From Phycisphaera sp. (GTDB lineage Bacteria; Planctomycetota; Phycisphaerae; Phycisphaerales; UBA1924), in NCBI GenBank assembly GCA_025916675.1, contig CP098402.1:2041205-2105204 (forward strand): a stretch of DNA of 64,000 bases. Direction: 5' to 3'. The notes under the pieces are model-generated. The model was not told where the DNA came from and did not search any database. It was given only the letters and a program-made list of their open reading frames with translations. Position numbers and translations under genes: made by a program. Positions 9,873-25,766 of the stretch are shown here, in pieces. The first letter of the stretch is position 1; each line of letters starts with the position of its first letter.

Positions 9873-10571
9873 TCAGCCAGCGGCCTTCTGGGCGGCGGCC
9901 TTGGTGGGCCGCAAACGGATCGAGGGGCGGATGTGAACCACGCCGCCGTTGGCCCCGGGCACGGGGCCCTTGACCAGCAGGAGGTTACGCTCCGGCTCGA
10001 CCCGAACAACATCGAGATTGCGAACGGTGACGCGCACGTTGCCCATCTGGCCGTTCATCTTCTTGCCCTTCTTGATCCGACCGGCCTTACCCGCGTTGTT
10101 CGCGTGACCGCCGATCGAACCGGGCGAACGGTGCTTGCGCTCCACGCCGTGGGTGGCGCGCAGGCCCTTGAAGTTGTGCCGCTTCATGGTACCGGCGAAG
10201 CCCTTGCCCTTGCTGGTGCCTGCGACGTCAACGTACTTGACGTTCTGGAAATGCTCGACCGAGAGGGTCTGGCCCAGCTCGAACTCGCCCGCCTCGGCCT
10301 CGTCCATGCGATACTCGACGTGGACGGCTTTGGGGCCCGTGCCCGCCTTGGCGTCGTGGCCCATGATCTGGAAGGTGGAGCGGCGCGGGCGGGCGTCCTC
10401 GCCGCCGATCTGGACGGCCGAGTAGCCGTCACGCTCGGGCGAGCGGACCTGGGTGACCACCGCCGGAGCGACCTCGATCGCCGTCACGGGGATCGATACG
10501 CCGTCCTGGTAGACGCGGGTCATGCCGATCTTGCGACCGATGAGTCCCAGTTTGTCGTTTCCGCCTGCCAT
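9873..10571 (-). CDS. rplC: 50S ribosomal protein L3 (uL3)
   Basis: L3 starts 50S assembly and reaches toward the peptidyl-transferase centre. The ATG at 10571 gives 232 residues, beginning MAGGNDKLGLIGRKIGMTRV. The signature region is FAGTMKRHNFKGLRATHG, followed by RSPGSIGGHANNAGKAGRIK and KKMNGQMGNVRVTVRNLDVV. An in-frame GTG twelve bases upstream is less likely because it overlaps the AAGG site. Confidence 0.96.
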   Translation of the reverse strand: MAGGNDKLGLIGRKIGMTRVYQDGVSIPVTAIEVAPAVVTQVRSPERDGYSAVQIGGEDARPRRSTFQIMGHDAKAGTGPKAVHVEYRMDEAEAGEFELGQTLSVEHFQNVKYVDVAGTSKGKGFAGTMKRHNFKGLRATHGVERKHRSPGSIGGHANNAGKAGRIKKGKKMNGQMGNVRVTVRNLDVVRVEPERNLLLVKGPVPGANGGVVHIRPSIRLRPTKAAAQKAAG

Positions 10572-10675
10572 GCTCTGTTCCACCTTGCTTCGTGGCTCTC
10601 GGGGGTTGCCCGGGCCAGAGGAAGCGAATCGTTCCTGTTGTGCTGACGCCGTCTATCTAGCGAGTAGAGGGGCGG

Positions 10676-10984
10676 TCAGGCCTTGATCTTTACGAACACG
10701 CCCGCGGGCACCACCAGCCGGTTCAACGCCTCGACGGTGCGGGCGTTGGGCTCGTGGATATCGATGATCCGCTTGTGCGTGCGGATCTCGAACTGCTCGC
10801 GGCTCTTCTTGTCGATGAACGGTCCACGGAGGACCGTGTACCGCTCGATCCGCGTCGGCAGAGGGACCGGACCGGCCACTCGGGCGTTGGTCCGCTTGGC
10901 GTGGTCCACGATCTCTCGAGCCGAAGCATCGAGGGCGATGTGGTCATACGCTTCCATCCGAATTCGAATGCGACCACCTTGCAT
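10676..10984 (-). CDS. rpsJ: 30S ribosomal protein S10 (uS10), first gene of the cluster
   Basis: S10 is both a head protein of the small subunit and the NusE antitermination factor. The ATG at 10984 gives 102 residues: [40 protein letters not shown] and [18 protein letters not shown]. An AGGAGG site lies 12 bases upstream. It is the promoter-proximal gene of the S10-spc cluster here; EF-Tu, often upstream, is not adjacent. The 241-base divergent gap to the next gene presumably carries the operon promoter, but I cannot point to a convincing one. Confidence 0.96.
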
Positions 10985-11225
10985 GGGCCCGCCAACCTCC
11001 TGACCTGCCAAGTTCTGCGTCAACCGCCCGGTGAGCCCGGCCGGTACTGACCCACGCCCTGGGGGCCGCAGCCCCCGCCACAAGCGCGGAGAGAAGGATA
11101 GATCGATCCGAACCCCCGTCAACCGCCGGACGCAAGGAATGTGAAGATCGGGACAACCGGGCCGCCGACCTATCCTGTCTTACGGCTCGCACATTGACCC
11201 ACAAGATCGACCCACGGAGGGGTAC

Positions 11226-13784: not shown

Positions 13785-13893
13785 ATGGGCCATCGTGGGT
13801 GGACTGGCTGCGGACTAGTAGGTGGTCCGGCGGGGATCATCGCCCGATCGCACAGTTGCTCTTTGATACATTGTGATTGCCCCGAGGACACGA

Positions 13894-14700
13894 ATGCTAC
13901 GAAGGCCCCGTAGGACAACGGCACGATTCCTATTCTGCGCTGCCTTGATCGGCACTTCGCTCACGATCCACGCGTGCCGCAACCGAGCGATCGCGTACTA
14001 CGAGATCCAAACAGGCTCCCCGATCAGACTCACCACTCGTGACAGCGGGCTGAGGGTTGGCGAGTTGGACGAGTCTGGATCGCTGCACGCGGGCCAGCTC
14101 TTGGTCGATCGTGCGCGGACGGACCGCTTTCTCAGGTTCACGTCGGGATCCGATGAACCAGAGACGGTGCTCCGATCGATCACGCCCGCGGCGGACGGCT
14201 CGCTGACCATCGTGCTGGCCACCGGTTCCACCTCCGCGGCGTCCGGTCGCTCCGTGCTCGTCCTGGACGAGACCGGCGATCTGCTAATCGATTCGAACCT
14301 GGCCAACAACATCGAGAGCACCTTCGAGCCCAGAGCACTCTTCCTGCCAGCCATGCTCAGCGCTGGAGAAGAGTTTGTCCGCCCGATCCGGGTGCAATCT
14401 GAGGGCAATCTGTTCAGCTCGGGATCGGGCGAGGGCACTTCGACCATCAGGGGCATCGGAATTCAGCTCGTCGAGGTGCCCGCGGGGCTCTACGAGGCGT
14501 TCGTGGTCGAGTCAGAACTCTCGTTCGCCATCGGGCCCGCGCGCATCGTGCTCACCCAGCGAGCCTGGTTCGCGATCAATCGCAATGGTGTCGGGGTCGT
14601 GGCCGAGGAGGGCCGCGAACTCGTCAGGGTGTTCGGCATCCCGGCGCACAACGAGAAGCGTGTCAGCGTGCTGGCCCAAGAGATGATTGAAGACGAGTGA
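13894..14700 (+). CDS. Predicted exported or lipid-anchored protein of unknown function
   Basis: The ATG at 13894, five bases after GAGGA, is preferred to an in-frame GTG at 13873. The 268-residue product begins with basic residues and a hydrophobic signal (RFLFCAALIGTSLTIHAC). The cysteine at its end could be a lipoprotein attachment site, although His at position -2 is unusual. The remainder looks like a beta-rich periplasmic domain with no recognised motif. Its last 38 bases overlap the 3' end of the convergent glycosyltransferase-Idi gene. Confidence 0.65.
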   Translation: MLRRPRRTTARFLFCAALIGTSLTIHACRNRAIAYYEIQTGSPIRLTTRDSGLRVGELDESGSLHAGQLLVDRARTDRFLRFTSGSDEPETVLRSITPAADGSLTIVLATGSTSAASGRSVLVLDETGDLLIDSNLANNIESTFEPRALFLPAMLSAGEEFVRPIRVQSEGNLFSSGSGEGTSTIRGIGIQLVEVPAGLYEAFVVESELSFAIGPARIVLTQRAWFAINRNGVGVVAEEGRELVRVFGIPAHNEKRVSVLAQEMIEDE

Positions 14701-16351
14701 GCGAGTCGCCGCCCTCGAACACTCGTGCCAACGCGAGCGGGAGCCAGGGCGTATACAGGCCTGGCTGACGTTCGAGCGACTCACGCAGTTCAGATAGCTC
14801 GATCCAGCGCCAGTCTTCGGCCTCATCCTCGTTAAGAGCAGGCTCCCCCGAAAAATGCCCAACAAACACGTGATCGAGTTCGTGCTCGGTCAGGCCGCTA
14901 GCCTCATCGTGTGCCTTGTACACGAACCAGCCCTGCGGCTCGAGCGGGATGTTGATGCCCATCTCCTCGTACAGCCGCCGGCGTGCTCCATCGACGGGCG
15001 CTTCCCCGGGCCTTGGATGGCTGCAACAGGTATTGGTCCACAGCCCGCCGAAGTGATACTTCCCCGACGCTCGCTTCTGCAGCAGGACCCTGCCCTGGTC
15101 ATCGAAGACAAAAACGGAAAACGCGCGATGGAGCCTGCCCCCGTCGAGATGGGCGGCCTGCTTGTCCATCGTTCCTAGTTCGCGATCGTCGGCGTCGACG
15201 AGGACGACTTGCTCTTCAACAGGTTGCGACAACGTGCGCCCCTTCCAAGTCCGTCCAGACGCCCGGTGCAGCACATAAGAATGCCACTGGATCAACGTAA
15301 GCATCCAGACCGAGATCGGATGCAACATCGCAAGGCCTGGTGCGTGATCGAATCGACGAGTAAGCACGAGCCGCTGCGCTACCTGCAGCACGATGGCTCC
15401 AGCAGCAAGCGTGACCGCCAAAGCCGATCCACCCGTGATGAGGATCAATGGCAAGGCAACCCACGGCACGACGTGGATCATCACGTGCAGCGTTGTCAAG
15501 AATGTGAGCAGCCCGAGTGAGCCGAGGCCCTCGAACGCGTTCTTCGCAAACCCGTGCCAGGTCTGGGCGAAACCCGCGTACATCCGAACGTGGCACAATT
15601 GGGTGCCATCGAACAGATCAGTCCCATATCCCGCCTTGCGACACAGGCGGGGGAGCTTGACCCCGTCGTGCATGGAATCTTTGATCGCCGCATGCCCGCC
15701 GGAGGCCTCGTACGCGGCTCGTTCGATCATCAGGAACTGGCCACAAGCGGCGCTGGCCGACGGCGAGCGCGTGCGGCGCATCCGTGAGAAGGGCAGATAC
15801 CCGATCAGCAGGAAGAACATCATCGGGACGACCAACGCCTCGCCCAGCGTGCCGGTGATCTGGCGGGGGAACGTGGACACCAGCGACGATTGCGACGTTC
15901 GGGCGAACGCGAGAGCCCTGCCGATCGCGTCGGGCTCGAGCCGCACGTCCGCATCGATGAACAGCATCCACTCGCCCCGGGCAACCTGCGACAAGCGGTG
16001 GCAGGCGTGCTGCTTGCCCACCCATCCCGGCGGCAGCGTCTGCGACTCTACAACGTTCAGGCGATCGTAACGCTCGACAAGCCGGGCCAGGATCTCGCCG
16101 GTGCCGTCCGTCGAGTCGTCGTCGTAGACAAGCACCTCGAGCGCCCCGTGGTGCGATGCGAGCACGGACTCGACGACCGCCTCGACGTTATGCGCCTCGT
16201 TCCGGCACGGAATGCAGACGCTGACGAGCGCTTCATCCGAGCCATCCGCTGCCGGTGGCGGGCCGAACGCCCGCAGGTTGCGCAGGGTCAGCGCGAACGT
16301 GAACAGCGAGACCAGAACGCACAAGGCCAGGTACCACACGAGCACGGTCAT
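14663..16351 (-). CDS. Family-2 glycosyltransferase fused to type I isopentenyl-diphosphate isomerase (CrtQ-Idi)
   Basis: This 562-residue protein has two parts. Residues 1-370 are a membrane-associated GT2 glycosyltransferase: an N-terminal helix, VSVCIPCRNEAHNVE, VYDDDSTDGT, the DxD in FIDADVRLE (133-135) and C-terminal helices, like the CrtQ carotenoid glycosyltransferase. Residues about 378-545 are a Nudix-type isopentenyl-diphosphate isomerase: TNTCCSHPRPGE holds the catalytic Cys (443), RRLYEEMGI the Nudix helix, and EHELDHVF the catalytic Glu. The isomerase makes DMAPP for prenyl synthesis; the GT would glycosylate a carotenoid acid. The start ATG overlaps the acyltransferase stop by 4 bases (ATGA). 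Domain identities are clear; carotenoid specificity is inferred from the neighbours. Confidence 0.85.
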   Translation of the reverse strand: MTVLVWYLALCVLVSLFTFALTLRNLRAFGPPPAADGSDEALVSVCIPCRNEAHNVEAVVESVLASHHGALEVLVYDDDSTDGTGEILARLVERYDRLNVVESQTLPPGWVGKQHACHRLSQVARGEWMLFIDADVRLEPDAIGRALAFARTSQSSLVSTFPRQITGTLGEALVVPMMFFLLIGYLPFSRMRRTRSPSASAACGQFLMIERAAYEASGGHAAIKDSMHDGVKLPRLCRKAGYGTDLFDGTQLCHVRMYAGFAQTWHGFAKNAFEGLGSLGLLTFLTTLHVMIHVVPWVALPLILITGGSALAVTLAAGAIVLQVAQRLVLTRRFDHAPGLAMLHPISVWMLTLIQWHSYVLHRASGRTWKGRTLSQPVEEQVVLVDADDRELGTMDKQAAHLDGGRLHRAFSVFVFDDQGRVLLQKRASGKYHFGGLWTNTCCSHPRPGEAPVDGARRRLYEEMGINIPLEPQGWFVYKAHDEASGLTEHELDHVFVGHFSGEPALNEDEAEDWRWIELSELRESLERQPGLYTPWLPLALARVFEGGDSLTRLQSSLGPAR

Positions 16352-17139
16352 GGGTGCGCCCCGCGTTGCTTTGGCGTAACGTGCGATCGCCGGCCCCGTA
16401 GCCGTTGCCACAGGTCATAGGCCGGGTTCACGTCCGATCCGCTCCTCGCCAGGATGGGCACGAACGGTTCGGCGCTGCGAGCGATCGCGAGTTCCGCCAG
16501 ACGATCGGCACCGCCCTGCATGCCGTCGCGAATGGCTCGCGTCCAGCCCGCGGTGGTTGGCCGTGCGGGCTGGGAACACGCCCGAGCCAACAGCAAGAGC
16601 TCGGGGCGCTTGTCCTCCCAAAACACGAGTTCCGAGAGGATCGCCAGCACGCGGACATCGTCCATGCCCGACGCGACGGCGCCCGCGCCGGGGCGTACGA
16701 CGATGGGCGTCCGGACATCGGCGAACCCGCCCTGGGGCGTCATGAAGAGCGCGGTGCGAGGGTCTTGCTCGTAGCACTCGCGCACGTACTGCACCATGGC
16801 CTGGGAGGCCTCTGGGTGCTCGGTATCGATCCCGAACATGCCGAGCTTTCGCATGAACCGGAATCGATCGAACATCGCCATCTCGATGGGCGCGATCGCC
16901 GGGCGGTCGGGCATGTAGATGTGCTTGATGGCGACGCCGATGATCGGATCCCACCAGCTGGGGTGGTTGAACGCGACCACCAGCGGGCCATGATGCGCGG
17001 CGGCATCGCGCAGCACTCGTTCGCTCTCTTGCTGTAGATGGACACTTGCGAATCGCTTGCGCAACATTCGGCACGCGTAGCTCCCGAAGAATCGCACGAA
17101 GCGCGGCGACGCACGAGCTGGGGCGATGGGAGCGGTCAT
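16348..17139 (-). CDS. 1-acylglycerol-3-phosphate-type acyltransferase, probably carotenoid O-acyltransferase (CrtO-like)
   Basis: The 263-residue protein has the HX4D catalytic motif of glycerolipid-type acyltransferases (VAFNHPSWWDPIIGV) and the downstream FMTPQGGFADVRTP region that matches the acceptor-binding EGTRS-like block. In the staphyloxanthin pathway an acyltransferase adds a fatty acid to the carotenoid glycoside, and this gene sits exactly between the oxidase and the glycosyltransferase genes. It overlaps both neighbours by ATGA. A general lipid role cannot be excluded from sequence alone. Confidence 0.8.
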   Translation of the reverse strand: MTAPIAPARASPRFVRFFGSYACRMLRKRFASVHLQQESERVLRDAAAHHGPLVVAFNHPSWWDPIIGVAIKHIYMPDRPAIAPIEMAMFDRFRFMRKLGMFGIDTEHPEASQAMVQYVRECYEQDPRTALFMTPQGGFADVRTPIVVRPGAGAVASGMDDVRVLAILSELVFWEDKRPELLLLARACSQPARPTTAGWTRAIRDGMQGGADRLAELAIARSAEPFVPILARSGSDVNPAYDLWQRLRGRRSHVTPKQRGAHP

Positions 17140-18743
17140 GCCATGGCCGGCGTCGGTGCCGCGACCTCTTCGGGTGTGGGCCCGTGGCTCGTGCCCTCGA
17201 TGTCGGTCGCGGGCAAACCAAGAAACTCGGCTGCTGACTTCGCCGCCGTCACGCCGCTCATCAGCACCATGGGGACACCCGGCCCGGGGTTGGTGCTGCC
17301 GCCGGCCAGGAACAAGCCCGGGATCTTCGACGAATTGCGGGGCTTGAACCCGCCCGCGAGCCGGCCGTGCGAGGCCAGGCCGTAGATCGCCCCACCCTCG
17401 GCGTTGTACATCCGTTCGATGCCGGTCGGAGTGAGCGAGCGTTCGACGACGATGTGCTCCTGGATGTCCTCCATCTGGAAGCGGGCCAGTTTGTCCATGA
17501 CCACGGGCCGGTAGTGCTCGAGCATCCCGCCCGGCTCGTTCCACTCGTGGCCCGGACGCAGATAGGGAGTGTGGATGAGGATGTAGAGCGCTTCGCCCCC
17601 GGGCGGGGCCTGGTCGGGGTCGGTCCGCGATGGCGCGGCGATGTACAGCGTCGGGTCGCGGGCCGGCACGCCCCGCGTGTAGATATCGTCAAACTCCTCG
17701 TGGGAGTCCTTGCTGAAGAGGAAGTTGTGGTGTGCGAGGTGCTCGTACTGGCGGTCGAGGCCAAGGTACAGCACGACGCCGCTGCACGCGGGCGTGTGCG
17801 TGCGAGCGATCTGGTGTTGCACATTCCGGGCTTGGTCGGTCTTGATGAGGTCGCGATAGGTCCGCTGCACGTCGCAGTTCGAGACCACGGCGTCGGCCGC
17901 GATGGTCCTTCCGTCGGCCAGCCGGATGCCGGTGGCTCGCCCACCCTCGGTGAGGATCTCCTCGACGGACACCCCGACAAGAACCTCGACACCAAGATCC
18001 GTCGCAAGCCGTTCGAGTGTTTGCGCAACCTTGCGCGTGCCGCCCATGGCGTACCAGCAGCCCTGATCCACCTGGGCCGAGGCGATCATCGTGAGGATGG
18101 CCGGTGCCAGGAACGGGCTCGACCCGACATATTGCAAGAAGTGCTCGGCGATCTGCCTCGCGTGCGGCTCGCGCAGGTGCTTCTGGATCGTGGCGGCCAC
18201 CGTCGAGTGCAGCCGCATCGCCAGGGCGTCGCCCATGACCTGCTTGTCCATCGCGGGCGACTGTCGCATCACGTCACGGATGCCGCCGACGTCCTTGTAG
18301 AAGAACACGTTGCGGCTGAGCCGGTTCATCCGGCGGCTGTACTCGATCAGCTTCCGCCAACCGGCTCCGGCACCAGTTCCGGGGACCTTGGCCTCGAGCT
18401 CGCGCGCCATGGCATCAACGCTCTCGCATAAATCAATGCTGATCCCGTCCTCGAAGAAGCAACGCCACTGCGGGTCGAGGCGGACGAGGTCGATCAGGTC
18501 GGGCACCCGCCGCTCCGCGCGCCGGATGATGCCGCAGAGGACCTCGGGCAGGGTCAGGATCGTGGGCCCCATGTCGAAGGTATAGCCCTTCTCGGTGAGC
18601 ACGTTCATCTTGCCGCCGAGGTGGTCGTTGGCTTCGACGAGGGTGACCTGCGTACCCCGCCCACGGAGCTCGACCGCTGCCGCAAGGCCCGCGAGCCCGC
18701 CACCAACAACGACCACATGTTTTGGACTACTCCCGCCTTCCAT
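17136..18743 (-). CDS. CrtI/CrtN/CrtP-family carotenoid desaturase or oxidase
   Basis: This 535-residue FAD-dependent oxidoreductase has the dinucleotide-binding VVVVGGGLAGLAAAVELR, the family block KGYTFDMGPTILTLPEVL and the C-terminal FAD-contacting FLAGGSTNPGPGVPMVLMSG. The ATG at 18743 has AGGAG seven bases upstream; a GTG at 18764 overlapping the previous stop is an alternative. Being next to the aldehyde dehydrogenase, it may be the CrtP-type terminal-methyl oxidase, with the paralogue at 20183 acting as desaturase, but this division of labour is a guess. Its stop overlaps the acyltransferase start by 4 bases. Confidence 0.85.
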   Translation of the reverse strand: MEGGSSPKHVVVVGGGLAGLAAAVELRGRGTQVTLVEANDHLGGKMNVLTEKGYTFDMGPTILTLPEVLCGIIRRAERRVPDLIDLVRLDPQWRCFFEDGISIDLCESVDAMARELEAKVPGTGAGAGWRKLIEYSRRMNRLSRNVFFYKDVGGIRDVMRQSPAMDKQVMGDALAMRLHSTVAATIQKHLREPHARQIAEHFLQYVGSSPFLAPAILTMIASAQVDQGCWYAMGGTRKVAQTLERLATDLGVEVLVGVSVEEILTEGGRATGIRLADGRTIAADAVVSNCDVQRTYRDLIKTDQARNVQHQIARTHTPACSGVVLYLGLDRQYEHLAHHNFLFSKDSHEEFDDIYTRGVPARDPTLYIAAPSRTDPDQAPPGGEALYILIHTPYLRPGHEWNEPGGMLEHYRPVVMDKLARFQMEDIQEHIVVERSLTPTGIERMYNAEGGAIYGLASHGRLAGGFKPRNSSKIPGLFLAGGSTNPGPGVPMVLMSGVTAAKSAAEFLGLPATDIEGTSHGPTPEEVAAPTPAMA

Positions 18744-18760
18744 GGGCACGCTCCTGCGAC

Positions 18761-20098
18761 TCACCTGCTATACCGCCAACGCACGAATCGCTCGATGTTC
18801 CGCTGCACCCGCTGGCTCGGCTCCTCGGTGGGGAGTCGTAGCTTCCGGCTCGTCTTAGAGACGAACTGGGGCCTTGTCATTGCCAGCAACCCTAGCTCTC
18901 CCCTGGAGACCCCCCAGCCGCTGGGCCCCCGGCCCGCCAGGCTGGCACCGGGGTGGGCCGTCGGGACCATGCAATCGTTGATCGTGATAAATCCCGAGCC
19001 GATCTCCCGGGCGATTGTCTGCGCTTCGGCCGGTGAATTGGTAAAGATCGACGTTGCCAGGGCCTTGTTCGAGAGCCCGGCAAGCGAGAGCGTCTCGGAA
19101 CGGCTCCCCGATCGCAGCACCGCGATCGCGGGCCCAAAATGGTCGCTCGAAGCAACATCGGCATCGGCCGGACAATCCAGGATCGCCGTCGGTGCGAATC
19201 CAGTGCTTGAATCCAGGTCGCTGGAAACGACCCCGGCCCCCATCGCTCGCCCCTGCTCGACGAGCGATCTGCAATGCTGGGCTTCGGAGCCACGAACAAG
19301 CCGGCACCGGGCCTGCTGTTCGAACTTCTTTGTGAATGCGTCGATGAACTGTTTGTACGCCCCATCCTCGACGATCACCCGCCTCGGTGCCATGCAGCTC
19401 TGTCCCGAGTTGAGCGCCAACGCGAAGTAGATCGAGTCGGCGGCAAGCCCGGCGTCTGCATCGCCGAGCACGATCGCCGAATCCGAGCCCGAGAGCTCCA
19501 GCGTGCTTGGCGTCAGCGAGCCGGCCAGCGCTCCGGCGATGTCGCGCCCGATGGCCGTCGACCCGGTAAAGACAACGTGGTCGAACGTGCCCCGCTCCAG
19601 CATTTCCCGTCCCGCTTCGCGGGTGGCGTCGGTCCAGTCGAGCCGCGACGCGTCGAGCCCCGCATCCCGAGCGAGTTCGAGCAGCGCGAGCTGGCAGCGA
19701 GGGGATCGCTCGCTGGGCTTGACGGTCACGTTGTTTCCCGCGGCGATCGCCTGCACAAGCTGGATGCCCAGGAGCTGATACGGATAATTCCAGGTTGCGA
19801 TGATCGCGACATGACCGAGCGGTGCCCTTCGGACGGTCACGCGTTGTCCGAAACGCCAGACCCCACCGTGGCCGATACGCTTGGTTCTCAAGATGCGCTT
19901 TGTCCGCCTCTCATGCCACACGCAGGCGTCCAGCAGCGGTACGATGTCCGACATGAGGACTTCGAAGCCTGGACGGTCGAGTTCTTCCGTACACTCCCGA
20001 ACGAGTCTTGGTACTTCCCCGACAATGGATCGCCTCCATCGCCGAATCCAGGCGATGTCATATCGTGACGGCGTCTTCTCGAAGCTGTCGTGGTTCAC
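18761..20098 (-). CDS. Aldehyde dehydrogenase, probably carotenoid-aldehyde specific
   Basis: The 445-residue protein has the ALDH signatures: IIATWNYPYQLL with the oxyanion Asn (104), VVFTGSTAIGRDIA for cofactor binding, the catalytic Glu (201) in LELSGSDSAIV and the catalytic Cys (235) in NSGQSCMAPRRV. It would oxidise a carotenoid aldehyde to the acid, as AldH does in staphyloxanthin synthesis. Family members usually read LELGGK at the Glu; LELSGSD is a variant. The start is GTG. It is the first gene of the leftward carotenoid operon. Confidence 0.85.
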   Translation of the reverse strand: MNHDSFEKTPSRYDIAWIRRWRRSIVGEVPRLVRECTEELDRPGFEVLMSDIVPLLDACVWHERRTKRILRTKRIGHGGVWRFGQRVTVRRAPLGHVAIIATWNYPYQLLGIQLVQAIAAGNNVTVKPSERSPRCQLALLELARDAGLDASRLDWTDATREAGREMLERGTFDHVVFTGSTAIGRDIAGALAGSLTPSTLELSGSDSAIVLGDADAGLAADSIYFALALNSGQSCMAPRRVIVEDGAYKQFIDAFTKKFEQQARCRLVRGSEAQHCRSLVEQGRAMGAGVVSSDLDSSTGFAPTAILDCPADADVASSDHFGPAIAVLRSGSRSETLSLAGLSNKALATSIFTNSPAEAQTIAREIGSGFITINDCMVPTAHPGASLAGRGPSGWGVSRGELGLLAMTRPQFVSKTSRKLRLPTEEPSQRVQRNIERFVRWRYSR

Positions 20099-20182: not shown

Positions 20183-21739
20183 ATGAAAACACCAAAGATC
20201 GCCGTCATTGGTGCCGGCCCCGGCGGTCTGGCCACAGCCGTCCTGCTCGCGGGGCAGGGCCTGGATGTCACGATCTACGAGTCCCAGCCCGACATTGGCG
20301 GACGCACCGGACGCGTCACGACAGGCGACTTCGCGTTCGACCTCGGCCCAACTTTCTTCTTGATGCCGTACGTCTTGCAGGAGATTTTCACTGCCGTCGG
20401 CAAAGATTTAAACGACTACGTTGACCTGCGGCGTCTCGATCCGATGTACCGGCTCTTGATCGGGCAGCAGGATGGCCCAGACATCACGATCGACGCCACG
20501 CAGGACACCGGGCGCATGGCGGCCCAACTTGGCGTCCTCCATCCGGACGACGGCCTGGCCTTCGAGTCGTTTGTTGTTCACAACCGCCGAAAGCTGAACG
20601 CCGCCGAGCCGATCCTCCGCCGCCCAATCCGCTCGTTCCGGGACCTCATCCGGGCCGACGCCGCCCGGGTCTTGCCGGTCTTGAAGCCAACCGAGACCGT
20701 CGATTCGCTGAGTTCGAAGTACTTCAAGCACCCCGCATCCAAGATCGCCGTCGGCTTCCAGAGCAAGTACCTGGGCATGAGCCCGTACGACTGCCCCAGC
20801 CTGTTCACCATCCTGCCCTTCATCGAGTACGAGTACGGCGTCTGGCACCCCATCGGTGGGTGCCACGCGCTCATGAAAGCCCTGGCGCAGGTTTTCACGG
20901 AACTCGGCGGCACCATCCGCACCAACACGCCCGTCGACGGCGTTCGCGTCGAGCGCGGCCGCGTCACCGGCCTCGACTTGGGTGATCGCGTCGTGCACTA
21001 CGACCATGCGGTGATCAACGCTGACGCGACATGGGCTCTCAAGAACCTCTTCCCCGAGTCGATCCGCGGCAAGACGACCGATGCCTCGCTCGACCGCAAG
21101 AAGTACTCGTGTTCGACATACATGATGTACCTGGGCGTCGAGGGCAGCGTCGACCTTCCACACCACACCATCCGCACGGCACCGGACTACAGGGGCAACC
21201 TGGAAGACATCGGCCGCCGCGAAGGGACCGGCGGGTCACTGACCCAAGACCCGAGTTTCTACGTATGCAACCCCAGCGTCACCGATCCGACGCTCGCACC
21301 GGCTGGCCATAGCTCGCTCTATATACTTATGCCAACACCAAACACGCGAGCCGCGATTGATTGGAAGGCCGAGGCTCCTGTCTGCCGTGGTCGGCTCCTC
21401 GAACGCATGCGTACGCTGCTCGGCGTCGATCTCACCGATCGAATCCACGAAGAACGCACCCTGACACCCGATGATTGGGCGAGCCACAACATCAACTTCG
21501 GCGCCACGTTCAATCTCTCCCACTCTCTCGACCAGATGCTCCACAAGCGACCGCAGCATCGCGTCCCGTTCGCCGATGGAGCCTGGCTCGTCGGCGGCGG
21601 CACCCATCCGGGCTCGGGCCTGCCCGTGATCTTCCTCTCGGCCCAGATTACCTCGAATCTCGTGCTCAAGGATCTCGGTGTCCGGTCCCAGCCTGGACGG
21701 CGGGCCACCGAACGAGCGTTGGCGGAGACTGCGGTATGA
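20183..21739 (+). CDS. crtN: CrtN-family carotenoid (dehydrosqualene) desaturase
   Basis: This 518-residue FAD enzyme of the phytoene-desaturase family has IAVIGAGPGGLATAVLLAGQ at the N-terminus, the block DFAFDLGPTFFLMPYV and the C-terminal WLVGGGTHPGSGLPVIFLSA. It would introduce double bases into the C30 backbone made by the coupled synthase, giving the coloured polyene. It overlaps that synthase by ATGA. It is only distantly similar to the paralogue at 17136-18743. CrtN versus squalene-forming HpnE function cannot be settled by eye. Confidence 0.85.
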   Translation: MKTPKIAVIGAGPGGLATAVLLAGQGLDVTIYESQPDIGGRTGRVTTGDFAFDLGPTFFLMPYVLQEIFTAVGKDLNDYVDLRRLDPMYRLLIGQQDGPDITIDATQDTGRMAAQLGVLHPDDGLAFESFVVHNRRKLNAAEPILRRPIRSFRDLIRADAARVLPVLKPTETVDSLSSKYFKHPASKIAVGFQSKYLGMSPYDCPSLFTILPFIEYEYGVWHPIGGCHALMKALAQVFTELGGTIRTNTPVDGVRVERGRVTGLDLGDRVVHYDHAVINADATWALKNLFPESIRGKTTDASLDRKKYSCSTYMMYLGVEGSVDLPHHTIRTAPDYRGNLEDIGRREGTGGSLTQDPSFYVCNPSVTDPTLAPAGHSSLYILMPTPNTRAAIDWKAEAPVCRGRLLERMRTLLGVDLTDRIHEERTLTPDDWASHNINFGATFNLSHSLDQMLHKRPQHRVPFADGAWLVGGGTHPGSGLPVIFLSAQITSNLVLKDLGVRSQPGRRATERALAETAV

Positions 21740-23402: not shown

Positions 23403-25766
23403 ATGGCCATGAACCCATCAGATCAACAACCCGGTTCTGAAGCACCGCGAACGCGGCGGCTGGCATCCGCGATTGCTCGACGCTGGCGATTGGCCGGCAC
23501 GCTCTCACTATTGGGAAAATGTCTGGTGGGTGCCGGGGCGGCGGGTCTGGTCTTGGTGCTGTCGGCGCGAGGGCTCGGGCCTGCGACGTGGGCCATCTGG
23601 GCCGTCATCGCCCTCGCCCTGGCGGCGGGCGTGCTGGCAGCGGGGTGGGCCCTCTCACGCCGGCCTTCCTTGCGAGCCGCAGCCGCAGCCGCGGATCGGC
23701 ACGCGAAACTCAAGGACGTGTTGGTCAGTGCCTTGCTGCTGAGCAGCAGGGCGGATGACGAAGACCCGGGTTTTTCCGCGCTGGCCATCGCCCGAGCCGA
23801 GTCGGTCGCGCCGGATGTCAAGCCCACCGAGGTCGTGCCCGTGCGGCTGGGCAGGGCGTGGCTCGTGTGGCCGGCCCTCGTGGCCCTCGCGTGCACCGCC
23901 GCGGTGTTCGTCCCACCCTGGGGATACCAGCCAACGACCGAGGAGGCCAGCGTTGCCCTGGTCGACGAAGAGCAGGCCGAGCGTGCCCGACAGGGCATCG
24001 AGGATCTGGCAACCGCTCTCGAACAGCAAACCGCGGAAATGGACGGCCAGGGAAGCCAAGACCAGGACGAGCGGCTCGAACGACAACTCGAGCGTTTGCG
24101 AGAGATCGAGGAAGAACTAACCGCGGGCCAGCGCAAGCCCGAAGAAGCCGTGACCGAGGCAACGGCCGCGGCTACCGAGGCGGCCGAGGCGCTCGAAGAA
24201 GCCGCCCGCGAGCGGGAACTGGCCGACGAGGCGCTGCGTGATGCGCTCGCCAACCTTGACCCGACCGGTGACCGTGAACAACTGGACGAGGACTCGCTGC
24301 GTGGCGCCGCCGAGCGACTCGCCGAAGCGTTGGAGCGCGGCGACCTCGAACGTGCGGCGGAAGCGGCCGAGGAGTTGAGGCAGCGATCGCAGGATCCACA
24401 GGCCGGCGAGCAGGAACGCCGTGAGGCCGCGGAGCGGCTGCGCGAACTGGCCGAGAAGCTCGATCCACAAGCACCCACCGAAGCACAACCCCAAACCGGA
24501 CAAGCCGAGCAAACCGAACAAGGCGAGCAAGAGCCACCGACGCCCGGCGAGCCCACGGGGGGCGCATCAACCCAACCCGAAGACCAAGACCAGCAAATCC
24601 CTCCACCATCACAGACCGAGACTCGCGACGAACAGAGCGAGCAGCAGAACCAAGAAGAGCCTCCCGCCAGCGATCCCGCGTCGGCTGAAACCCAGGACAA
24701 CGGGGCCCAAGACAACCCCGAAGAACAACGCCGCGAACGAGAGGCCCAGCAGCGCGAGCGGGCCCAACGCGATGCCCAGGAACAACAGCGCGAGTTGGGC
24801 GAGTCGGTGCGCGAGGCCGCCGACGAGGTCGAACGCGGCCCAGAGCAACAGCAGGAGCAAGATCAGCAGTCGCGTGGGGGCCAGCCGCAAGAGCAACGCG
24901 AGGGCGAATCTGGAGAACAGCCTGGGCAGGAGCAGTCAGGACAAGAGCAAAGCGGGCAAGAACAGCGCGAGCAACAGGGCCAAGAACCAGGACAACAGCA
25001 AGGCCAACAGCAGGGCGAGGAGCCAAGCCAGGAGCAAGGGAAAGAGCCCCAGCCGGGGGCAGATCAAACCCAGGAGCAAACCCGGGAGCAAGGCCAGGAG
25101 CAGAGCGAGCGGCCCGGTGGTGAGCGGCCCGGCGATCAATCCGCAGAACAACCCGGCGAACAACAGGGCCAGCAAGAGCAAACCAGCGAACAAGGCCTGG
25201 CCGAGCGGCTGCGCGAATTGGCCGACCGCCCCGGTGACGCCCAGCGGCAGCAGGAGCAAGCCCAGGAACTCCGCGAGCGGGCCCGTGAAGTGTTCGAACG
25301 CATGTCCCCCCAAGAGCAGCAAGACCTGCTCGAACAGCTGCGCGAGCAGCAACAAGGCGGCCAGCCCGAGGGCGAGGATGGCGCCGGTTTATCGCCCTCG
25401 ATCGAAGGGGACGGCAACCCCTCACCACAGGGCGTCGGCGAGGGCGAGGGCGAGGCCAGTGGCGACCAGCCCCAATCGACCGATCCCTGGCAGCGGGAGC
25501 TGATGGACCTGCCCCCGCAAGAGGACGGGGCCGGCCAGGACGGCATGCGCACCGTCGCGGAGTGGTTCGGCGATGGCCGTGACGCACCGGGCGGGCAGGG
25601 CCGCACCGTCTCCGACGACGTGCGGCAAGCCGCGCGCGGAGCGCAAGAGGCCATCGAGCGTGAGCGTGTCCCGCAGCGACGCAGCGAGTTCATCCGCCGT
25701 GTCTTTGAGCGGTACGCCGAGCAGTTCGCCCGCGAAAAGCCCACTCAGGGTGGTGATGGCTCGTGA
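23403..25766 (+). CDS. Membrane-anchored, extremely Q/E-rich low-complexity protein
   Basis: The first ~175 residues contain hydrophobic segments (about 38-57, 60-82 and 152-172). After that comes a long charged coiled-coil-like region, and from about residue 355 to 615 a very biased stretch of Gln, Glu, Gly, Arg and Pro, with repeats such as GQEQSGQEQ and QQGQQQGEEP. The last ~150 residues are again more normal (LAERLRELADRPGDAQ, ARGAQEAIERERVPQRRSEF). The overall plan resembles the conserved low-complexity membrane proteins (DUF4175-like) known from other bacteria. Its stop overlaps the GTG start of the VWA gene (GTGA), so the two are coupled. Two in-frame ATGs (23403, 23409) are possible starts. 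Confidence 0.8.
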   Translation: MAMNPSDQQPGSEAPRTRRLASAIARRWRLAGTLSLLGKCLVGAGAAGLVLVLSARGLGPATWAIWAVIALALAAGVLAAGWALSRRPSLRAAAAAADRHAKLKDVLVSALLLSSRADDEDPGFSALAIARAESVAPDVKPTEVVPVRLGRAWLVWPALVALACTAAVFVPPWGYQPTTEEASVALVDEEQAERARQGIEDLATALEQQTAEMDGQGSQDQDERLERQLERLREIEEELTAGQRKPEEAVTEATAAATEAAEALEEAARERELADEALRDALANLDPTGDREQLDEDSLRGAAERLAEALERGDLERAAEAAEELRQRSQDPQAGEQERREAAERLRELAEKLDPQAPTEAQPQTGQAEQTEQGEQEPPTPGEPTGGASTQPEDQDQQIPPPSQTETRDEQSEQQNQEEPPASDPASAETQDNGAQDNPEEQRREREAQQRERAQRDAQEQQRELGESVREAADEVERGPEQQQEQDQQSRGGQPQEQREGESGEQPGQEQSGQEQSGQEQREQQGQEPGQQQGQQQGEEPSQEQGKEPQPGADQTQEQTREQGQEQSERPGGERPGDQSAEQPGEQQGQQEQTSEQGLAERLRELADRPGDAQRQQEQAQELRERAREVFERMSPQEQQDLLEQLREQQQGGQPEGEDGAGLSPSIEGDGNPSPQGVGEGEGEASGDQPQSTDPWQRELMDLPPQEDGAGQDGMRTVAEWFGDGRDAPGGQGRTVSDDVRQAARGAQEAIERERVPQRRSEFIRRVFERYAEQFAREKPTQGGDGS

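Follow-up and report, generated by a model that had tools for sequence, protein, structure and literature searches.

A glycosyltransferase fused to isopentenyl-diphosphate isomerase in carotenoid gene clusters of Phycisphaerales

The 64,000-nucleotide stretch of Phycisphaera sp. DNA analysed here (the window) carries one gene in which a CrtQ-like glycosyltransferase (GT) is joined to a complete type I isopentenyl-diphosphate isomerase (Idi). The fusion is conserved in relatives, the active-site residues are intact, the gene lies in a carotenoid cluster, and 10 of the 11 genomes with the fusion also carry a squalene-synthase-like (SQS-like) gene. The reading we favor, with a probability of about 0.68, is that a bifunctional, membrane-anchored CrtQ-Idi equips an SQS-based C30 pigment cassette with a DMAPP supply of its own; the activity, the single product, the topology and the benefit to flux that it includes are what we infer from these observations.

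Results

One reading frame for a glycosyltransferase and an isomerase

The original prediction was that one continuous frame joins a CrtQ-like GT2 glycosyltransferase to a complete type I Idi with its Nudix motif and Cys443, and both the open frame and the Pfam and NCBIfam matches bear this out. The frame runs from ATG to TGA without an internal stop, and the remaining two frames of the minus strand contain 16 and 11 stops across the same interval. A stop or frameshift between the halves, which would speak against a fusion, was not found in the 562-residue frame.

14663..16351, minus strand: crtQ-idi fusion gene, 562 aa (62 kDa), in one frame and conserved in relatives
15233..16351, minus strand: GT half, residues 1-373, with GT2 domain, motifs and predicted helices
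14663..15232, minus strand: Idi half, residues about 374-562, type I IPP isomerase (Nudix) with Cys443, by domain, cut-off and structure matches

Pfam placed Glycos_transf_2 at residues 44-215 (1.4e-23) and NUDIX at 407-534 (7.9e-25). With a GC3 of 0.82 for the GT half against 0.69 for the Idi half, the gene gives a weak hint that the two differ in origin. At its 3′ end the gene shares 38 bases (14663-14700) with a convergent ORF (13873-14700, plus strand), and a homologue of this ORF follows closely after Idi in G609, G645, G593, G510, G663 and G601.

The GT half carries the motifs DDDS (77-80) and DAD (133-135) and a C-terminal WKGR motif (369-372). Its NCBIfam matches were HpnB (160.7 bits), CruG and HpnI, all under their cut-offs, with no CrtQ equivalog model among them. 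In the AlphaFold model of the whole protein (mean pLDDT 79.2) this half resembles membrane GT2 enzymes when compared by VIA-align, with PcManGT (6yv7_B) at Z 22.2 and rmsd 5.4 over 321 residues, and hyaluronan and cellulose synthases also found. It is 41% identical to a Microvirga GT in a similar gene context. The GT2 domain together with the cluster context points to a CrtQ-type C30 carotenoid glycosyltransferase. Helices are predicted at 2-28, 279-306, 310-334 and 344-365. Given the first three, the C-terminus would be cytosolic if helix 344-365, which precedes the junction, is interfacial; this helix could also span the membrane and put the Idi half outside the cytosol. Our working model has the Idi half in the cytosol.

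The Idi half passed both NCBIfam Idi equivalog cut-offs (NF002995, 180.2 versus 127 bits; TIGR02150, 134.3 versus 105.8 bits). Fusion residues 380-540 are colinear with E. coli Idi 4-165, and the cysteine at fusion residue 443 is residue 67 of the Idi half. In the E. coli enzyme the active site comprises Cys67, Tyr104 and Glu114/116, with metal-binding His25/32/69 and with Trp161. In 11 aligned Idi sequences (10 fused ones and that of G728), H25, H32, C67, H69, Y102, E113, E115 and W160 of the Idi half are invariant. The Idi-half model aligned by VIA-align with E. coli Idi 1r67 at Z 20.4 and rmsd 2.3 over 146 residues, and model residues 407-556 with 1hzt at Z 20.1 and rmsd 2.3 over 148. The Idi halves of the fused genes are 51-77% identical to that of the window, and approximate dN was well below dS for both halves in all five pairs compared, several dS values being near saturation. 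These data suggest that the Idi half functions as a type I IPP:DMAPP isomerase; as predicted, it is complete, with its Nudix motif and Cys443, and the active-site motifs of both halves are intact.

A C30 carotenoid cluster with a separate squalene-synthase-like gene

The carotenoid context that had been proposed from the fusion gene was confirmed by its neighbors, as CrtN, CrtP-like, aldehyde dehydrogenase and acyltransferase genes lie alongside.

16348..17139, minus strand: acyltransferase gene (AcylT), overlapping crtQ-idi and crtNb by 4 bases each; start chosen by overlap, domain scan from 17085
17136..18764, minus strand: CrtN/CrtP-like desaturase or oxidase (CrtNb), crtI_fam 392 bits
18761..20098, minus strand: aldehyde dehydrogenase (AldH), by domain match
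20183..21739, plus strand: CrtN-like desaturase, divergent from the operon, crtI_fam 445 bits
21736..22680, plus strand: SQS-like gene, overlapping crtN by 4 bases; start chosen by overlap, homology search from 21760

The fusion gene closes an apparent operon, AldH-CrtNb-AcylT-CrtQ/Idi, with a 4-base overlap at each junction, and the divergent CrtN-SQS pair overlaps by 4 bases as well. The gene order is the same in all nine loci with enough sequence (the window genome included; in one of them the contig breaks off within SQS). Judged by homology, the gene set corresponds to a C30 pathway of the staphyloxanthin type. Squalene synthase chains of the eukaryotic type match the SQS-like protein better (2e-14) than do CrtM (5.5e-7) and HpnC (0.0056); the best NCBIfam model for this protein is squalene synthase TIGR01559, at 96 bits under a cut-off of 286.75. 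Idi and squalene synthase are not joined in one protein here, the SQS-like gene standing separately at the coordinates given. Downstream of it, at 23403-25766, an ORF of 787 residues contains a long low-complexity stretch rich in Gln/Glu.

Fused and unfused relatives

We searched 400 genomes of the order Phycisphaerales with the TIGR02150 profile and then read fusions by tblastn and frame reading. Thirteen genomes matched, 11 of them over the cut-off. Idi was fused to CrtQ in 11 of the 400, the window genome included, and these fall into two families; the conserved fusion in planctomycete relatives that the original prediction had proposed to look for was thus found. Both halves are complete in one frame in nine of the 11, again counting the window genome. 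In G601 the fusion is split between two contig ends, which explains its score under the TIGR02150 cut-off, and in G510 it lacks the first ~110 GT residues and lies beside a truncated crtN. At this locus (L165, about 9932-10990) AldH, CrtNb and AcylT are absent between the crtN and crtQ remnants, through either deletion or misassembly. The thirteenth profile match, in G473, gave no tblastn match to the window's Idi. No second Idi was found in the 11 fused genomes, and type II Idi had no match over the cut-off in the 400 (270 had sub-threshold matches). Of at least 579 Idi loci confirmed by a scan of GTDB the best 80 were examined, and the one among these with Idi fused to the GT was L079, which is the G708 contig; none of 294 matching plasmid records covered 80% of the query. 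An assembly artefact or a missed stop was ruled out, as nine complete fused frames were present in nine genomes, that of the window included.

In the window's family (163 genomes) 65 matched the fusion protein at 1e-30: nine fused genomes, 50 with a close unfused CrtQ (47-56% identity), G728, and five with distant GTs only, so that nine of the 59 close CrtQs are fused. In each of the 50 unfused genomes the search at 1e-30 gave one GT match and nothing for Idi, and the 13 TIGR02150 matches include none of these genomes, taking the presence of each in the 400-genome draw as given. Separate crtQ and idi genes in family relatives, which the original prediction had named as a finding that would overturn it, were therefore rejected. 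G728 (genome completeness 70%) has a free-standing Idi and no CrtQ was found in it; its type I Idi lies at about 391-936 of L036, and no carotenoid genes were seen on the 2.4 kb read of this short contig. Loci L085, L088 and L118, which belong to Phycisphaerae or Phycisphaerales by NCBI name only, have a free Idi and no GT in the stretch examined.

The fusion goes together with the SQS-like gene. The window's SQS-like protein had 13 matches in the 400 order genomes, 10 of them in fused genomes, which gives 10/11 fused genomes versus 3/389 others (the Idi and SQS searches being taken as the same draw, with genome labels agreeing where listed). The Fisher value for this table, p 1.2e-16, is uncorrected for kinship and does not describe independent events, because the link stems from one linked cassette. 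The fused genome without a match, G663, has its cluster on a 3.8-kb contig. The three genomes with an SQS-like match and no Idi belong to family f4; the gene adjoins CrtN in G496 and G721 and does not in G588, and the SQS-CrtN pairs of L184 (G721) and L185 (G496) may represent a stage before Idi joined.

Genes of the SQS_PSY type are arranged differently in fused and unfused genomes, as seen with PF00494 in 23 genomes. Nine fused genomes had a single match, the crtN-linked gene, G425 had two and G663 none. Ten of 12 unfused genomes had an adjacent SQS_PSY pair, with a third match in G034 and G432, and none was present in G500 and G728. HpnC and HpnD were the best models in all five pairs scanned, one of the ten pieces being over the cut-off. 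ispH, present in all 23 genomes, lies within about 1 kb of the HpnC/HpnD-like pair in eight of ten (G034, G002, G157, G420, G432, G319, G242 and G480) and not within that distance in G261 and G407. Where a fused genome has an SQS-like gene (10 genomes), its ispH lies elsewhere, either on a different contig or 70 kb or more away. No SQS or Idi match appeared in seven stretches of 17-20 kb from unfused genomes, three of which (L169-L171) carry just CrtNb, AcylT and CrtQ from the gene set. On a 977-kb plasmid of Microvirga ossetica (L189, 6010-11025) genes for squalene/phytoene synthase and FAD oxidoreductase and then ispH come after a crtQ-like gene within a single gene run. With ispH beside HpnC/HpnD, Idi with SQS, and ispH in Microvirga, a gene for C5 supply thus recurs next to squalene or carotenoid genes.

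Trees of the two halves

The GT tree held 43 rows after removal of duplicate loci, rows under 33% identity (Poribacteria were kept) and rows with fewer than 240 aligned residues. The 11 fused CrtQs form one branch in it, with moderate support (79/58; 78% of 200 bootstrap trees). The fused pair from family f3 falls with family f1; G407 and G500, congeners of fused G425, have a distant CrtQ; and a separate, unfused branch is made up of G002, G034 and G157, which share the window genome's genus. Taken together, these placements suggest that the cassette moved between Phycisphaerales lineages and families, as read from the gene tree. The Idi tree comprised 46 of 91 rows, G601 being left out because it is split. 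Here the fused Idis are not one branch: G728, Armatimonadetes L080, Phycisphaerae L118 and Acidimicrobiales L138 lie among or beside them, mostly with weak support, and the free Idi of G728 nests among the fused ones (97/74). The simplest account would be one fusion and one later split, and the G728 Idi is possibly the product of such a fission. A single origin is probable, in which idi would have become attached to crtQ at its 3′ end, within a C30 cluster that had an SQS-like gene of its own.

The junction and other readings of the fusion

Joining could also have been incidental. Because the genes upstream in the window's operon overlap by 4 bases at all three junctions, the loss of one stop codon could easily join two genes; a passenger fusion of this kind, arising between overlapping or adjacent operon genes, would leave both halves working, with the linkage meaning only co-expression and co-transfer of a useful cassette. 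Three features suit such an event: the spacer that links WKGR-T and the Idi core is of uneven length among the fused genes (about 5 to 22 residues), residues 362-382 are modeled with low confidence (pLDDT <50), and the nesting of the G728 Idi means that the link may have been undone once. Against it, the fusion has been kept in 11 genomes of two families across the divergence of their Idi halves, with no second Idi to take over, and we consider it an unlikely but serious alternative.

The codons around the junction raise the question of a second product.

15230..15247, minus strand: junction, TGG AAG GGG CGC ACG TTG, a purine-rich stretch followed by TTG, in principle a start for a free Idi

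If translation also began just after WKGR, the gene would yield the fusion and a free soluble Idi. In the window the purine-rich GGAAGGGG lies six bases upstream of the TTG, and ATG occupies this place in G609, G593, G663, G510 and G708, so that six of the 11 fused genes have ATG or TTG there. The other five (L037, L040, L043, L045 and L046) have no ATG, GTG or TTG at this position; moreover, the purine stretch is largely dictated by the WKGR codons and is present in unfused crtQ genes too, which makes a second product improbable.

That the Nudix half has lost isomerase activity and now does something else, for instance sense C5 diphosphates or work on a different substrate, might be imagined from a partner that works at the far end of the pathway, and is very improbable in view of its invariant active-site residues, the two equivalog cut-offs passed and the close match to E. 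coli Idi.

Discussion

We therefore return to a bifunctional CrtQ-Idi that supplies DMAPP to its own pigment cassette. The CrtQ half would glycosylate the carotenoid acid made by CrtN, CrtNb and AldH, and the acyltransferase of the cluster would then acylate the product. The fused Idi would most likely shift IPP toward DMAPP for FPP when the pigment cassette is on, and the fusion would co-express Idi 1:1 with the last operon gene and hold it at the membrane. Since ispH, through which cells make both C5 units, was found in all the genomes checked, DMAPP should be available without Idi, which would then be dispensable for growth. Since the Idi and CrtQ steps are not consecutive, no direct channeling between the halves is expected. 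Several observations count against this reading: 50 of the 59 close-CrtQ genomes of the family have no Idi match, Idi stands alone in G728, neither the GT half nor the SQS-like protein scores above a specific NCBIfam cut-off, and helix 344-365, were it to span the membrane, would place Idi outside the cytosol.

The original prediction also suggested that the fusion might tether precursor supply to the membrane or tune flux. This fits the pattern in which SQS-type clusters have the fusion and HpnC/HpnD-type ones often have an adjoining ispH; that account was incomplete, as it lacked the linked SQS-like gene and the likely single origin and movement between families of the cluster. A bolder version, which we offer tentatively, is a natural membrane-tethered IPP isomerase: a late C30 enzyme would anchor the earliest one, and a mobile SQS-type cassette would bring C5 balancing to the pigment-making membrane complex, a part that ispH beside hpnCD would play in HpnC/HpnD-type relatives.

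C30 carotenoids of planctomycetes are reportedly the subject of Santana-Molina 2022 (PNAS). The claim that no fusion of this kind had been described holds for glycosyltransferase-Idi fusions, none of which appeared in the open-access literature surveyed (titles and abstract openings, with top-ranked papers for part); Idi fused to a later terpenoid enzyme does have a precedent. The nearest is diatom IDI-SQS (PtIDISQS, HoIDISQS), in which IPP isomerase is likewise naturally joined to an enzyme that acts later in terpenoid synthesis, with both domains described as functional for Haslea (PMC9208017, PMC12168105, PMC6723447). As described there, the diatom protein is eukaryotic, with Idi N-terminal and squalene synthase as partner, whereas here Idi is C-terminal and the partner a GT2 enzyme. 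We therefore rate the fusion as a new and conserved pairing of enzymes that are each known.

The tailoring genes have counterparts in known C30 systems. CrtN, CrtP, AldH, CrtQ and acyltransferase of, for example, Methylobacterium extorquens are the same kinds of enzyme, with the GT adjoining the acyltransferase gene, and the functions of these last two were reported from gene deletion and complementation (PMC10448405). In systems of this type CrtQ is a separate protein and squalene comes from HpnCDE, unlike in the fusion cluster. The Microvirga cluster likewise has adjacent GT and acyltransferase genes, but its precursor gene is ispH, not idi. Three Poribacteria loci (L094, L125, L129) and Acidimicrobiales L138 hold a CrtQ-like gene together with idi and desaturase genes in a span of about 8 kb; there, however, idi and GT are separate and the GT is only 33-36% identical to that of the window.

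Engineering offers a parallel for the proposed effect. An Idi-CrtE assembly was reported to move Idi to the membrane and to raise carotenoids in E. coli (PMC6751169); it resembles the fusion in placing Idi at the membrane together with a carotenoid enzyme, and differs, as outlined there, in using synthetic peptide tags and the first, not a late, carotenoid enzyme. In bacteria with the MEP pathway idi is reported to be non-essential, and carotenoid production has in some cases improved when it was overexpressed, as summarized in one source (PMC4138558). Because channeling between the halves cannot explain why a near-first and a near-last step share one polypeptide, the fusion would be a clean natural test of whether tethered precursor supply raises flux. 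The crtQ-idi gene may also serve as a compact bifunctional part for carotenoid engineering and as a marker for a transferable C30 cassette.
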